From NCBI RefSeq assembly GCF_021648855.1, contig NZ_JAKJHX010000039.1:1-38345 (forward strand): a stretch of DNA of 38,345 nt. Reading direction: 5' to 3'. How positions within the stretch are numbered: the first letter of the stretch is position 1; each line of letters opens with the position of its first letter. Under the pieces are notes generated by a model. It searched no databases. It worked only from the letters and a program-made list of their open reading frames with translations, and had not been told where the DNA came from. The position numbers and the translations under genes are program-made. Below are positions 21,320 to 25,137 of this stretch, in pieces. The DNA comes from Tychonema litorale BBK16. Lineage in GTDB: Bacteria > Cyanobacteriota > Cyanobacteriia > Cyanobacteriales > Microcoleaceae.

Positions 21320-21613
21320 TTAGGATTCCGTTTGATTGTGAGGGTGAAAACGAGCTAGTAATTGCGATCGATCGAGCTGCATAATCATTCGCGTGCGATC
21401 GATGAATTCTAGTTGAAGCAAAGGCTCAATTATTTGGGCTAATTCTTCATCAATTTCGCCAAATCTTACTTGTAGTATATTCTCAACAGTCTGGCATTTA
21501 ATTTGCTGAAAACCTTGCTGAAAACCTTGCTGAAAGCCTTGCTGAAAGCCTTGCTGAAAACCTTGCTGAGTTGCTTCTTCAAGCCGTTGTAAATAGAGGG
21601 GTGATAGTTCCAT
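21320..21613 (-). CDS. Stand-alone C-terminal Rpn-like domain with QQGF tetrapeptide repeats, candidate RpnS-type antitoxin
   Basis: A 97-residue protein that aligns end to end with residues 221-314 of the adjacent Rpn-like protein: MELSPLYLQRLEEAT, then five QQGF units, then VENILQVRFGEIDEELAQII and LLARF. Homology at the DNA level starts about 15 bases before the ATG, so GGAG with a six-base spacer is retained. It continues about 35 bases past the stop, so this is a partial gene duplication. In Escherichia coli the equivalent C-terminal domains are made from internal starts and inhibit the full-length Rpn toxin. Whether this copy is expressed or active is inference; it could equally be a decaying fragment, though its frame is intact. 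Confidence 0.65.
   Translation of the reverse strand: MELSPLYLQRLEEATQQGFQQGFQQGFQQGFQQGFQQIKCQTVENILQVRFGEIDEELAQIIEPLLQLEFIDRTRMIMQLDRSQLLARFHPHNQTES
21490..21572. repeat. 12-bp tandem repeat encoding QQGF
   Basis: Near-perfect 12-bp units (CTTGCTGAAAAC / CTTGCTGAAAGC on the plus strand) encode Gln-Gln-Gly-Phe on the minus strand. The paralogous gene has a parallel array at about 21885-21940 with units encoding QQGI. The arrays differ in unit number and sequence. The period keeps the reading frame, so slippage changes length by four residues at a time. Confidence 0.85.
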
Positions 21614-21697
21614 AATTAACTCCAGATTGGATCGAGATATAATAAATAATAAAGTGATATTTAGCGCACCCTACATATCGTAGAGTGCGCTACCGAG

Positions 21698-22642
21698 TTA
21701 GGATTCTGGTTGGTTTTGCGACGCATCGAAACGAGCTAGTAATTCAGAGCGATCGAGCAGCATAATCAGCCGCATACGATCGAGGGGTTCTAGTTGAATC
21801 AAAGGCTCGATTATTTGGGCTAATTCTTCATCAATCTCACTAAATTTTGCTTTTAGCAGATTTTCAACCTCCTGGCGTTGAGCGCGCTGAATACCTTGCT
21901 GAATACCTTGCTGAATACCTTGTTGGATACCTCGCTGAGTTGCATCTTCCAGCCGTTGCAAGTAGAGGGGTGACAGTTCCATAATTAACTCCCGATCTTC
22001 TCGATCTATATCTTGGCGAACTTCTAATATCGTTCGCAAGTTGTACAACAATTCTAACGCATTCAACCGAAACACATTATCAGAGGGTAGTTCTCTCAAT
22101 TCGGCAACCGCTTGCTTCTGCACGTTTCCCTTCCCTAAAACTCTCAGCCACAGCGTTTCTGGAGTGCGGGGGAGTTGGTGAATCGCAATAATTGCTGCTT
22201 TCAGAGACGGGCCCAGGAAATAAACTCCATTTACCCAATTTTCCGGTTCTGGAAGCGCTCGAAATCCAGCTAGCATGATGTCGGAAACAGTTGGCGACAG
22301 TATCCAAAGTTGGGGCAAGTCTGCCTCTACAATGCGGGTATTTTCTCTAGTTGCGATGCGTTCAAATTCGGCGTGGAGGTCAAAAAGTTTGCCCAGACAA
22401 CTGCGAATTTCTGCGGATTGGACGGGACTGCGGAATGGTTCAAATACAGCGGGTTTTGCTGCGATTTGACCCAGAATTCCGAGGGCTGTCGCATCGATTT
22501 CTGGTTCTGCTTTCGGAGAAAATAAAACATCAAGCTGTCTCACTTCTCCAGCAATGTCGCGGCTGGTTTCTACATTACCGAAAGGGGTTAATAATTCTTT
22601 CAGATACTGTTTCGCAAATTGGTCATGGATGAATCTAGTCAT
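21698..22642 (-). CDS. Rpn-like (recombination-promoting nuclease family) protein with internal translation start
   Basis: A 314-residue member of the cyanobacterial family that opens MTRFIHDQFAKQYLKELLTP and is usually labelled Rpn-family nuclease or DUF4351-type. EVRQLDVLF (33-41) would supply the PD-(D/E)XK aspartate. The second motif, around PQLWILSPT (110-118), lacks an obvious E-x-K, so catalytic competence is uncertain. Residues 195-219 lead into MELSPLYLQRLEDAT (221-235), a four-unit QGI-type repeat (237-252) and an amphipathic C-terminal domain. Met221 is preceded by GGGAG with six bases between, a good internal ribosome-binding site for a 94-residue product. The main ATG has no strong Shine-Dalgarno and is preceded by an AT-rich interspersed repeat (22645-22675). 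Confidence 0.78.
   Translation of the reverse strand: MTRFIHDQFAKQYLKELLTPFGNVETSRDIAGEVRQLDVLFSPKAEPEIDATALGILGQIAAKPAVFEPFRSPVQSAEIRSCLGKLFDLHAEFERIATRENTRIVEADLPQLWILSPTVSDIMLAGFRALPEPENWVNGVYFLGPSLKAAIIAIHQLPRTPETLWLRVLGKGNVQKQAVAELRELPSDNVFRLNALELLYNLRTILEVRQDIDREDRELIMELSPLYLQRLEDATQRGIQQGIQQGIQQGIQRAQRQEVENLLKAKFSEIDEELAQIIEPLIQLEPLDRMRLIMLLDRSELLARFDASQNQPES
21980..21993 (-). promoter_or_regulatory. Internal ribosome-binding site and ATG within the Rpn-like gene
   Basis: GGGAG (21989-21993, minus strand), six spacer bases and an in-frame ATG (21980-21982). The same arrangement starts the neighbouring 97-residue gene (GGAG at 21620-21623, ATG at 21611-21613). It could direct synthesis of a 94-residue C-terminal protein from the same mRNA. 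Confidence 0.55.
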
Positions 22643-22690: not shown

Positions 22691-22996
22691 CTAGGAATTT
22701 TTGCCACAGCATTTACCCTCACAGTTGCGAAGGCTGCGAATGCAGCCATACTCCTCGAAGCGTTGGGCGTGTTTGCGAACAGTAGGATAGGCCAATAAAT
22801 ATAATGGAATTCCGGTTAGTTTGTAAAACAATCGACCAGCAGCATGAAGAATATCCCAAATTTCATTCAAGCTAGGTTCTGAAACAAACTCTCCTATTTC
22901 ATCTGTTAAGGCAACCCACTGCGATCGCACAGTAGAATTGTGACACTCATCAAATGCTGCCATACCTTTTTGGTAGTTTTGCAAAATCTTATTCAT
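22691..22996 (-). CDS. Small protein of unknown function, weakly MazG-like
   Basis: A 101-residue, mainly helical protein. The segment WVALTDEIGEFVSEPSLNEI (about 27-46), followed by WDILHAAGR, carries an ExxE...ExxD pattern like the magnesium site of all-alpha NTP pyrophosphohydrolases (MazG/MazG-like). The rest (LTGIPLYLLAYPTVRKHAQRFEEYGCIRS) does not match that family strongly. The C-terminus has a Cys-rich tail (CEGKCCGKNS). It is near the Rpn-like gene on the same strand, with 48 bp between, so co-transcription is possible. The MazG link is a hypothesis. Confidence 0.6.
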   Translation of the reverse strand: MNKILQNYQKGMAAFDECHNSTVRSQWVALTDEIGEFVSEPSLNEIWDILHAAGRLFYKLTGIPLYLLAYPTVRKHAQRFEEYGCIRSLRNCEGKCCGKNS

Positions 22997-23082: not shown

Positions 23083-25137
23083 ATGCGACTATCTCAAATG
23101 CTTTTCGTCACCCTGCGGGAAGATCCAGCCGAAGCAGAAATTCCCAGCCACAAACTATTACTCCGTGCGGGATACATCCGCCGCATCGGTAGCGGTATTT
23201 ACGCTTATCTGCCGTTAATGTGGCGTGTTCTCAAAAAAGTCTCCCAAATTGTGCGCGAAGAAATGGATGCTACCGGCGCTCAAGAATGTCTTTTGCCGCA
23301 ACTGCAACCTGCCGATTTGTGGCGGGAATCGGGCCGCTGGGATACCTACACTCAGGCTGAAGGTATCATGTTTGCTCTGACAGATCGTCGCGATACAGAA
23401 TTGGGATTGGGCCCAACTCATGAAGAAGTAATTACTACAATTGCTAAAGATATGATTCGTTCTTATCGGCAATTACCTACACATTTGTATCAAATTCAAA
23501 CTAAGTTTCGTGATGAAATTCGCCCTCGTTTTGGCTTGATGCGCGGTCGTGAATTCATTATGAAAGATGGCTATTCTTTCCATACAAATGAAGAAAGCCT
23601 GAAAAAAACTTATCAGGATATGGCTCAAGCTTATAGCAATATGCTACGCCGATCTGGCTTGCAATTCCGAGCAGTAGATGCTGATTCTGGCGCAATTGGC
23701 GGTTCTGGTTCTCAAGAGTTTATGGTGTTGGCTGAAGCGGGTGAAGATGAGGTTCTCTATACTGAAGATGGTCAGTATGCTGCTAATTTAGAAAAGGCTG
23801 TTTCAATACCTGCTGATACTGAAGCCTCGCCCTTTGCAAGTTTTGAAAAGCGGGAGACTCCGGGGACTGAAACTATTGAAAAACTCTGCAAATTTTTCAA
23901 GTGTTCTCCTACTCAAGTTGTCAAAAATGTACTTTATCAGGCAGTTTATGACAGTGGTATCACAGTTCTGGTGCTGGTAAGCATTCGCGGCGACCAAGAT
24001 GTCAATCAGGTAAAATTGCTGAATGAATTAACTAAATTAGCGGGAGATTATCAAGCAAAAACAATCCTATTTCTGACAGTGCCCGATGCGGAAGCTCAGC
24101 AAAAATGGGCGGCTAAATCTTTACCTCTGGGTTATATGGCTCCCGATGTTGCTGATGATTATATTGCCTCGAACCCCCCCCAACCCCCCCTTACTAAGGG
24201 GGGGCTAAAAGACTCGACTCTCCCCCTTACTAAGGGGGGGCAACAAGACTCCACTCCCCCCCTTGGTAAGGGGGGGCAACAAGACTCCACTCCCCCCCTT
24301 GGTAAGGGGGGGCTAAAAGACTCGAATCCCCCCCTTGGTAAGGGGGGGCTAAAAGACTCGAATCCCCCCCTTGATAAGGGGGGGCTAAAAGACTCGAATC
24401 CCCCCCTTGGTAAGGGGGGGCAAGGGGGGGTATCTCCGAAGTTTTTGCGTTTGGTCGATCGCACCGCAGTCTATCTCACAAACTTTGTCACGGGATCTAA
24501 CGAACTAGGATACCACGTTGTGGGAGCCAATTGGGACAAAGAATTTCCCCTACCGAGTTTAGCAGTAGATGTCAGAAAAGCCAAAAAAGGCGATCGGGCA
24601 ATTCACAATTCCGAACAAACCTTACAAACCGCCAGAGGAATTGAAGTCGGGCACATCTTCCAACTAGGCACAAAATACTCCCAAGCAATGGGCGCCACCT
24701 ACACCAACGAACAAGGCGAAGAAATGCCTTTAGTTATGGGTTGCTACGGCGTTGGTGTATCGCGTTTAGCCCAATCTGCCGTAGAACAATCCTACGACAA
24801 AGACGGCATAATTTGGCCAGTGGCGATCGCCCCGTATCATGTAATCATCTGCATCCCCAATATTTCCGACGCTCAACAAGTAGAAGTCGCTGAAAAACTC
24901 TACGCAGAACTCAACCAATCAGGCATTGAAACCCTGTTAGACGATCGCGACGAACGAGCCGGAGTTAAATTCAAAGATGCCGATTTAATTGGTATTCCTT
25001 ATCGGATTGTGACTGGTCGTTCGTTAAAAACAGGCAAAGTAGAAGTCGTGGAAAGAGCAACTCACAAATCACAAGAAATCCCCATTGATGAAGTCAATTC
25101 TACCTTGAGAAATTGGATAGAAGCAGCCATCAAATGA
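23083..25137 (+). CDS. proS: Prolyl-tRNA synthetase (bacterial type) with in-frame repeat insertion
   Basis: A 684-residue class II synthetase charging tRNA-Pro. The bacterial-type N-terminus ([19 protein letters not shown]...[21 protein letters not shown]), class II motif 2 ([21 protein letters not shown]), motif 3 ([10 protein letters not shown]) and the C-terminal anticodon-binding domain (IICIPNIS...[20 protein letters not shown]) are intact. The editing (INS) domain occupies about 225-500. It carries an 87-residue insert (about 364-452) made of repeated 12-residue units such as [12 protein letters not shown] and [12 protein letters not shown]. Without it the length, about 597, is normal for the family. 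The frame is preserved, so the gene is presumably functional with the insert looped out. Confidence 0.95.
24171..24431. repeat. 36-bp tandem repeat within proS (C7/G7 palindromic units)
   Basis: About seven units of 36 bp. Each has a run of about seven C, a TTGGTAA or TTACTAA centre, a run of seven G, and a 15-bp linker (CTAAAAGACTCGAAT or CAACAAGACTCCACT). Each unit could form a hairpin. The period is a multiple of three, so every unit adds 12 residues. A related GC-rich palindrome is inside the element at 25188-25290. Confidence 0.92.

Follow-up and report, generated by a model that had tools for sequence, protein, structure and literature searches.

In a 38,345-nucleotide stretch of the cyanobacterium Tychonema litorale BBK16 (contig NZ_JAKJHX010000039.1; the whole stretch is called the window below), a 314-residue gene contains a conserved internal start signal at codon 221, and the 94-residue segment that this start would open is present a second time as a separate, maintained gene of 97 residues downstream of its parent. 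We consider it probable that the locus is a gene-within-gene system working like RpnL/RpnS of Escherichia coli and that the stand-alone gene encodes a second RpnS with a different pairing specificity. An earlier, sequence-only reading of the window had proposed the two open reading frames (ORFs), and both are found on the minus strand, with the following features.

21698..22642, minus strand: full-length gene, 314 aa (ORF; predicted PD-(D/E)XK-like N-domain at about residues 1-170, helical middle, C-terminal repeat helix)
21698..21982, minus strand: putative internal-start product, 94 aa, RpnS-like and DUF4351-related, start codon at 21980-21982 (Met in 75/75 genes; synonymous constraint)
21989..21993, minus strand: GGGAG, putative internal ribosome-binding site in codons 217-218 of the full-length gene (sequence; conservation)
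21886..21938, minus strand: 12-bp repeat array of the full-length gene, QQGI tetrads, 4.4 copies
21614..21697, minus strand: 84-base intergenic spacer, a 13-bp hairpin followed by the duplicated start region (aligned spacers; folding z −4.73)
21620..21623, minus strand: GGAG, putative ribosome-binding site of the stand-alone copy (sequence)
21320..21613, minus strand: stand-alone copy of the internal-start product, 97 aa (ORF; homology; relatives; selection)
21503..21569, minus strand: 12-bp repeat array of the stand-alone copy, QQGF tetrads, 5.6 copies

The internal start was analyzed in 75 family genes, comprising 72 of 80 loci fetched with six codon-degenerate peptide patterns, the window, and loci L131 and L126; the other 8 fetched loci were dropped for lack of a recognizable start, breaks or shortness. 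Because one of the six patterns spans the internal-start motif, sampling was not blind with respect to the methionine, though the patterns are codon-degenerate. In the window, six bases separate GGGAG from the ATG at codon 221, as first described, and methionine occupies this position in 75/75 genes. The codon for Glu218 is GAG in 70/75 genes, compared with 13% (176/1,311) of the upstream Glu codons of the same genes. At residue 217, 45 genes have Arg, 40 of them with a codon ending in G (19% in the background), and 29 have Gln, 28 of them with CAG (21% in the background); the remaining gene has Glu. This codon bias places GGAG six bases 5′ of the methionine in 66/75 genes versus 33/666 at other [RQE]E dipeptides, a spacing not due to chance; the Fisher p of 7e-59 is nominal because the genes are related and not independent, and it is the effect size that counts.

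Synonymous variation is depressed at the same place. Among 13 close orthologs, 98 synonymous differences would be expected in codons 213-219 and 0 occur, which makes this the lowest of 308 codon windows, and an unrelated stretch at codons 134-140 is almost as low (3 with 89 expected). The nine lowest codon windows of a 19-gene set all lie inside codons 211-225. The signal is weaker in the 56 most distant genes, where codons 217-223 (ratio 0.60) rank second after 305-311 (0.48), and across all 75 genes the lowest ratios are those of codons 204-210 (0.605) and 216-222 (0.611). In deeper paralogs, of which this genome contains four, GGAG-N6-ATG was found in 13/13 motifs and then in 3/3 further ones, L036 being the only one of 17 such loci to yield no motif. 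Judged by these signatures, the internal start is under selection and most plausibly acts as a translation start, with its own ribosome-binding site, that opens the C-terminal domain.

The 97-residue protein aligns with the 94-residue internal segment at 67% identity over 98 columns (E = 1e-26), and homology is limited to this segment, as the sequence-only reading held; further upstream the two genes have only the start region in common. In the window, the 10 bases 5′ of both ATGs are identical and patchy identity extends to about 24, while in L039, L045 and L055 the match reaches up to 27 bases and starts at ATAGATC. The earlier estimate of about 15 bases was too short, and the ribosome-binding site was indeed carried along. 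A homology starting near codon 197, drawn from alignments with in-frame stops, was rejected because the aligned spacers put its start at most 27 bases before the ATG. The remaining spacer DNA resembles the 3′ flank of single-copy loci. The spacer hairpin (about 21662-21692, GCGCACTCTAC...GTAGGGTGCGC) lies 3′ of the long gene, a similar hairpin lies 3′ of the stand-alone gene in several relatives, and it may separate two transcripts. The predicted model of the stand-alone protein is helical (predicted local distance difference test score, pLDDT, 77).

Four-residue repeats of variable number occupy the first helix of the small protein, and the array lengths differ between the copies as originally noted (5.6 and 4.4 units). 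The stand-alone protein of the window is one tetrapeptide longer, with a linker, defined as the residues between the methionine and the conserved tail, of 42 residues compared with 38 in the internal segment. Repeat number, whose variation among relatives the sequence-only reading proposed to survey, does vary. Internal linkers range from 34 to 81 residues across strains, and the difference between internal and stand-alone linkers is a multiple of four in 11 of the 12 strains compared (two of these copies, L038 and L131, are truncated further downstream). The two linkers are unequal in 10/12 strains; the 2/12 equal pairs compare with 1.3 expected from random pairing. Co-variation of repeat number between the two copies was sought and no sign of it was seen (Spearman 0.34, p = 0.28, n = 12).

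A similar mismatch is found in E. coli, where we surveyed MG1655 and 11 of 40 listed hits, ten of them picked for an annotated second gene and the eleventh (H20) proving to be single-copy. Stand-alone and internal repeat numbers differ in 11/11 rpnE-ypaA loci examined (7 distinct pairs); since our own arithmetic from the same numbers gives about 0.9 equal pairs by chance, this shows independence and not proven avoidance. Zhong et al. 2023 (PMC10327210) found that RpnCS no longer neutralizes once it carries one extra repeat, and that matching changes bring neutralization back. If this rule holds here, most stand-alone copies cannot neutralize their neighbor. The copy might nevertheless be a redundant antitoxin that gives extra immunity to the gene next to it, repeat number being irrelevant to pairing in this family. 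We regard this as doubtful: it fits the retention of head and tail sequence under purifying selection (below) and the equal linkers of two strains, one of which (L038) has a truncated copy, but it does not fit linkers that match no better than random, the mismatch at every E. coli locus examined, or the RpnC result. The extra immunity that the sequence-only reading offered as one role is thus disfavored, if the E. coli RpnC pairing rule applies.

The architecture itself is already known from E. coli. As described in the same paper (PMC10327210), RpnS can come from a gene of its own, which carries a DUF4351 annotation in some species; such genes adjoin rpnE (ypaA = rpnES, downstream) and rpnC (rpnCS, downstream), each arose independently from the neighboring gene, they can disappear by deletion or fusion, and the RpnES protein was detected. 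RefSeq lists MG1655 RpnE as inactive and ypaA as a pseudogene, although that protein was detected. The earlier statement that no stand-alone RpnS was known in cyanobacteria is narrowed accordingly: our literature search found no paper on Rpn or DUF4351 toxin-antitoxin genes of cyanobacteria, though subscription papers and supplements (Dataset S1 of PMC10327210) may hold cyanobacterial entries. New here are the diverged cyanobacterial branch, the separate re-creation of the duplication and the repeat mismatch.

The E. coli and cyanobacterial loci agree in several respects. GGAG lies in the same codons, six bases 5′ of the internal ATG, in MG1655 rpnA (KESLM), rpnB (KEKLM; the sequence compared is incomplete at one end) and rpnE (KERLM), with rpnC differing slightly (GESMM), and in rpnE the GGAG-N6-ATG has the same codon offset as in the window. 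The adjacent stand-alone genes ypaA and rpnCS begin at the same ribosome-binding site (AAAAGGAGAGATTAATG for ypaA), and both systems have four-residue repeats of variable number, ypaA having one tetrad more than its parent in MG1655. As in RpnA/RpnAS (PDB 7TH0), the repeat region would lie within a long helix holding the internal methionine (helix 214-267 of the window's predicted model). The loci differ in the size of the small proteins (94 and 97 aa in the window, 56 and 61 in MG1655) and in the start motif (Arg/Gln-Glu-Leu-Ile-Met in the window's family, Lys-Glu-x-Leu-Met in E. coli), and the window duplication is a separate event.

The part of the earlier proposal that weakened is the Rpn-like identity of the full-length gene, which now rests on a predicted fold and a C-terminal domain; the tetrad-bearing C-terminal small protein, the co-copied ribosome-binding site and a retained coding gene all stood. 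K11, D38, E68 and K85 are invariant in the 79-sequence alignment that also served for domain searches, and the predicted N-domain model resembles PD-(D/E)XK nucleases. DUF4351 (PF14261) matches the C-terminus of 15/79 members (best 9e-22), so a DUF4351-type small protein is indicated at family level, unlike in the window's own copies, which fall below the Pfam cut-off (14.2 bits for the stand-alone copy, cut-off 25; not listed for the full-length protein). No Pfam or NCBIfam model matches the full-length protein above cut-off, and PADLOC gives it a weak C-terminal match to the candidate 'putative invertase' (5.2e-6).

Several observations weigh against an RpnL/RpnS-like system. PF04754, which matches E. 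coli RpnA at 1.6e-91 and RpnE at 9.6e-88, matches 0/79 family members at E 0.01. TIGR01784 is weak in 20/79 (best 9.5e-5) and in the window's full-length protein covers residues 206-268 only, at 17.9 bits versus a 52.1-bit cut-off. Profile comparison with E. coli Rpn aligns a C-terminal stretch only, at 29% probability, and gives no sequence link for the N-domain; 7TH0 is absent both among the Foldseek matches of the stand-alone model and among the sequence matches of its profile. Among the 13 syntenic copies in relatives, three are broken, L038 and L131 by truncation and L040 by loss of its ATG; the L046 copy is open with an altered C-terminus, and L049, an open copy, has GGAT in place of GGAG.

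A related uncertainty concerns what the internal product does. It may be a required subunit of a larger complex and not an inhibitor, like the Cas11d made from within cas10d in Synechocystis, a precedent that Zhong et al. cite (PMC10327210); the stand-alone copy would then only adjust stoichiometry. Conservation of the internal start cannot separate inhibitor from subunit, and loss of the copy is tolerated (L052). We nevertheless judge a subunit unlikely, since start position, tetrad repeats and C-terminal DUF4351 are the same as in the inhibitory RpnS described there. In addition, six ortholog loci (L046, L049, L055, L077, L118 and L119) keep the internal ORF open despite a broken N-part, which is odd for a helper, although length or assembly error could explain it; L042 alone shows the opposite state, and L120 has lost both. 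This asymmetry was rejected as proof of a toxin, the N-part being 70% of the gene, so that 6:1 is not separable from length, and some breaks may be assembly errors.

To follow the copy among relatives, we surveyed 29 genomes of the genus, the window's included, and found it at one site in 13. Both proS and a gene for a 1034-aa protein flank it in 12/13, and the latter only in L043. A separate, recent copy in G025 runs off the contig end; five genomes have the locus without a copy (G002, G005, G011, G015, G021), as do the loci L042 and L044 outside this set. G019 retains a degenerate N-part alone, the contig of G008 stops 103 bases past the gene so that copy status cannot be judged, and eight genomes have no match above 54% identity. 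Nine of the 13 copies are fully open with ATG. Averaged over 10 strains each, the ratio of nonsynonymous to synonymous substitution (dN/dS) of the copy is 0.33 and that of the internal segment 0.35, and the N-domain averages 0.13 (7 strains); the pooled ratio of the corresponding polymorphisms (pN/pS) is 0.381 for the copy (0.215-0.599; 0/2,000 bootstraps ≥1) and 0.376 for the internal segment. The stand-alone copy is thus under purifying selection and behaves as a maintained coding sequence. The sequence-only reading would have taken frameshifts in sister strains as a sign of decay, and the broken copies, the altered end in L046 and an apparent loss through recombination in L052 do lend something to the idea of a functionless by-product of tandem duplication. 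That the copy is decaying is nonetheless improbable, given an upper bound on pN/pS of 0.60, the nine open copies, and GGAG plus ATG retained in 11/13 copies, where the GGAG DNA no longer codes.

On the tree, nine copies including the window's form one clade (99/97), those of L039, L045 and L055 form a second (100/99), and the L040 copy stands on its own; the copy/internal label requires 5 changes, 3 of them forced by well-supported branches. Since all 13 syntenic copies have the spacer in common, a single origin followed by exchange between copies is likeliest. The flank sequence is TATTATAGATC at the copy-free locus L081, the gene sequence is ACATAGATCGAGAAGATC, and the L039/L045/L055 spacer joins them at ATAGATC. 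The duplications in L119, where the common stretch at the junction is TGATAATT, and in L058 are separate events. L052 (Tychonema sp. LEGE 07203) has a single copy bearing the 3′ flank that relatives have behind the duplicate, its two copies having apparently recombined into one; the single-copy rpnE locus of E. coli 19KM1766N, which carries the stand-alone's tail, likewise suggests recombination. Oscillatoria sp. HE19RPO (L067, 4044-5069) has a whole second gene copy in which the N-part is interrupted and the internal start and C-part are open, and for this reason was rejected as a further stand-alone copy. That GGAG...ATG is a DNA or RNA element unrelated to translation, an idea left room by evidence consisting of sequence conservation, is very improbable in view of the Shine-Dalgarno spacing, the conserved methionine, and the retention of the unit as a stand-alone start, both in E. 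coli ypaA and where cyanobacteria duplicated it on three separate occasions.

Around the locus, no defense island was seen among nine examined of the 25 window ORFs of at least 170 aa, and the proteins that PADLOC matched to PycC and mad3/mad8 are a MASE1-PAS-cyclase and an ABC ATPase. A 101-aa ORF (22691-22996) between the full-length gene and proS has no family match above cut-off and has counterparts, 67-88% identical and in several cases partial, in many of the searched relatives. The proS gene (23083-25137) contains a 36-bp repeat of 6.6 copies, in frame at 24184-24421, that adds about 80 residues to the essential prolyl-tRNA synthetase.

In the RpnL/RpnS-like system that we favor, the full-length protein would be a toxic PD-(D/E)XK-type nuclease, possibly with an anti-phage role, restrained by the small C-terminal protein translated from the internal ATG, and the two would pair, according to repeat number, via the long repeat helix present in both. 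In the Microcoleus group, a short tandem duplication, joined where the gene and its 3′ flank have 7 bases of microhomology (ATAGATC), would have copied the segment from just 5′ of the internal ribosome-binding site to the stop, and the copy would have become a separate coding gene whose protein is retained while its repeat number changes independently. The stand-alone protein would then act as a second RpnS against other toxin alleles, or as a subunit tuning the complex, and not as a spare of the internal antitoxin. More tentatively, copying-out of an intragenic antitoxin might be a recurrent step that serves the mismatch itself: freed from the parent's repeat match, the stand-alone protein would serve a different partner and could, for instance, be a remembered or anticipatory antitoxin that counters other alleles of a hypervariable toxin. 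Such copying-out would have occurred independently in E. coli and, in cyanobacteria, three times or more, in a very large family not annotated as gene-within-gene toxin-antitoxin. A search with the 314-aa gene matched 2,144 predicted proteins at E 1e-3, and the named proteins among 120 listed matches are hypothetical proteins or 'Flagellar assembly protein H'. If this family consists of RpnL/RpnS-type systems, the toxin-antitoxin genes of cyanobacteria may include a large class that has been overlooked, and its separate copying-out with mismatched repeats poses a testable question, namely which target the stand-alone RpnS neutralizes.
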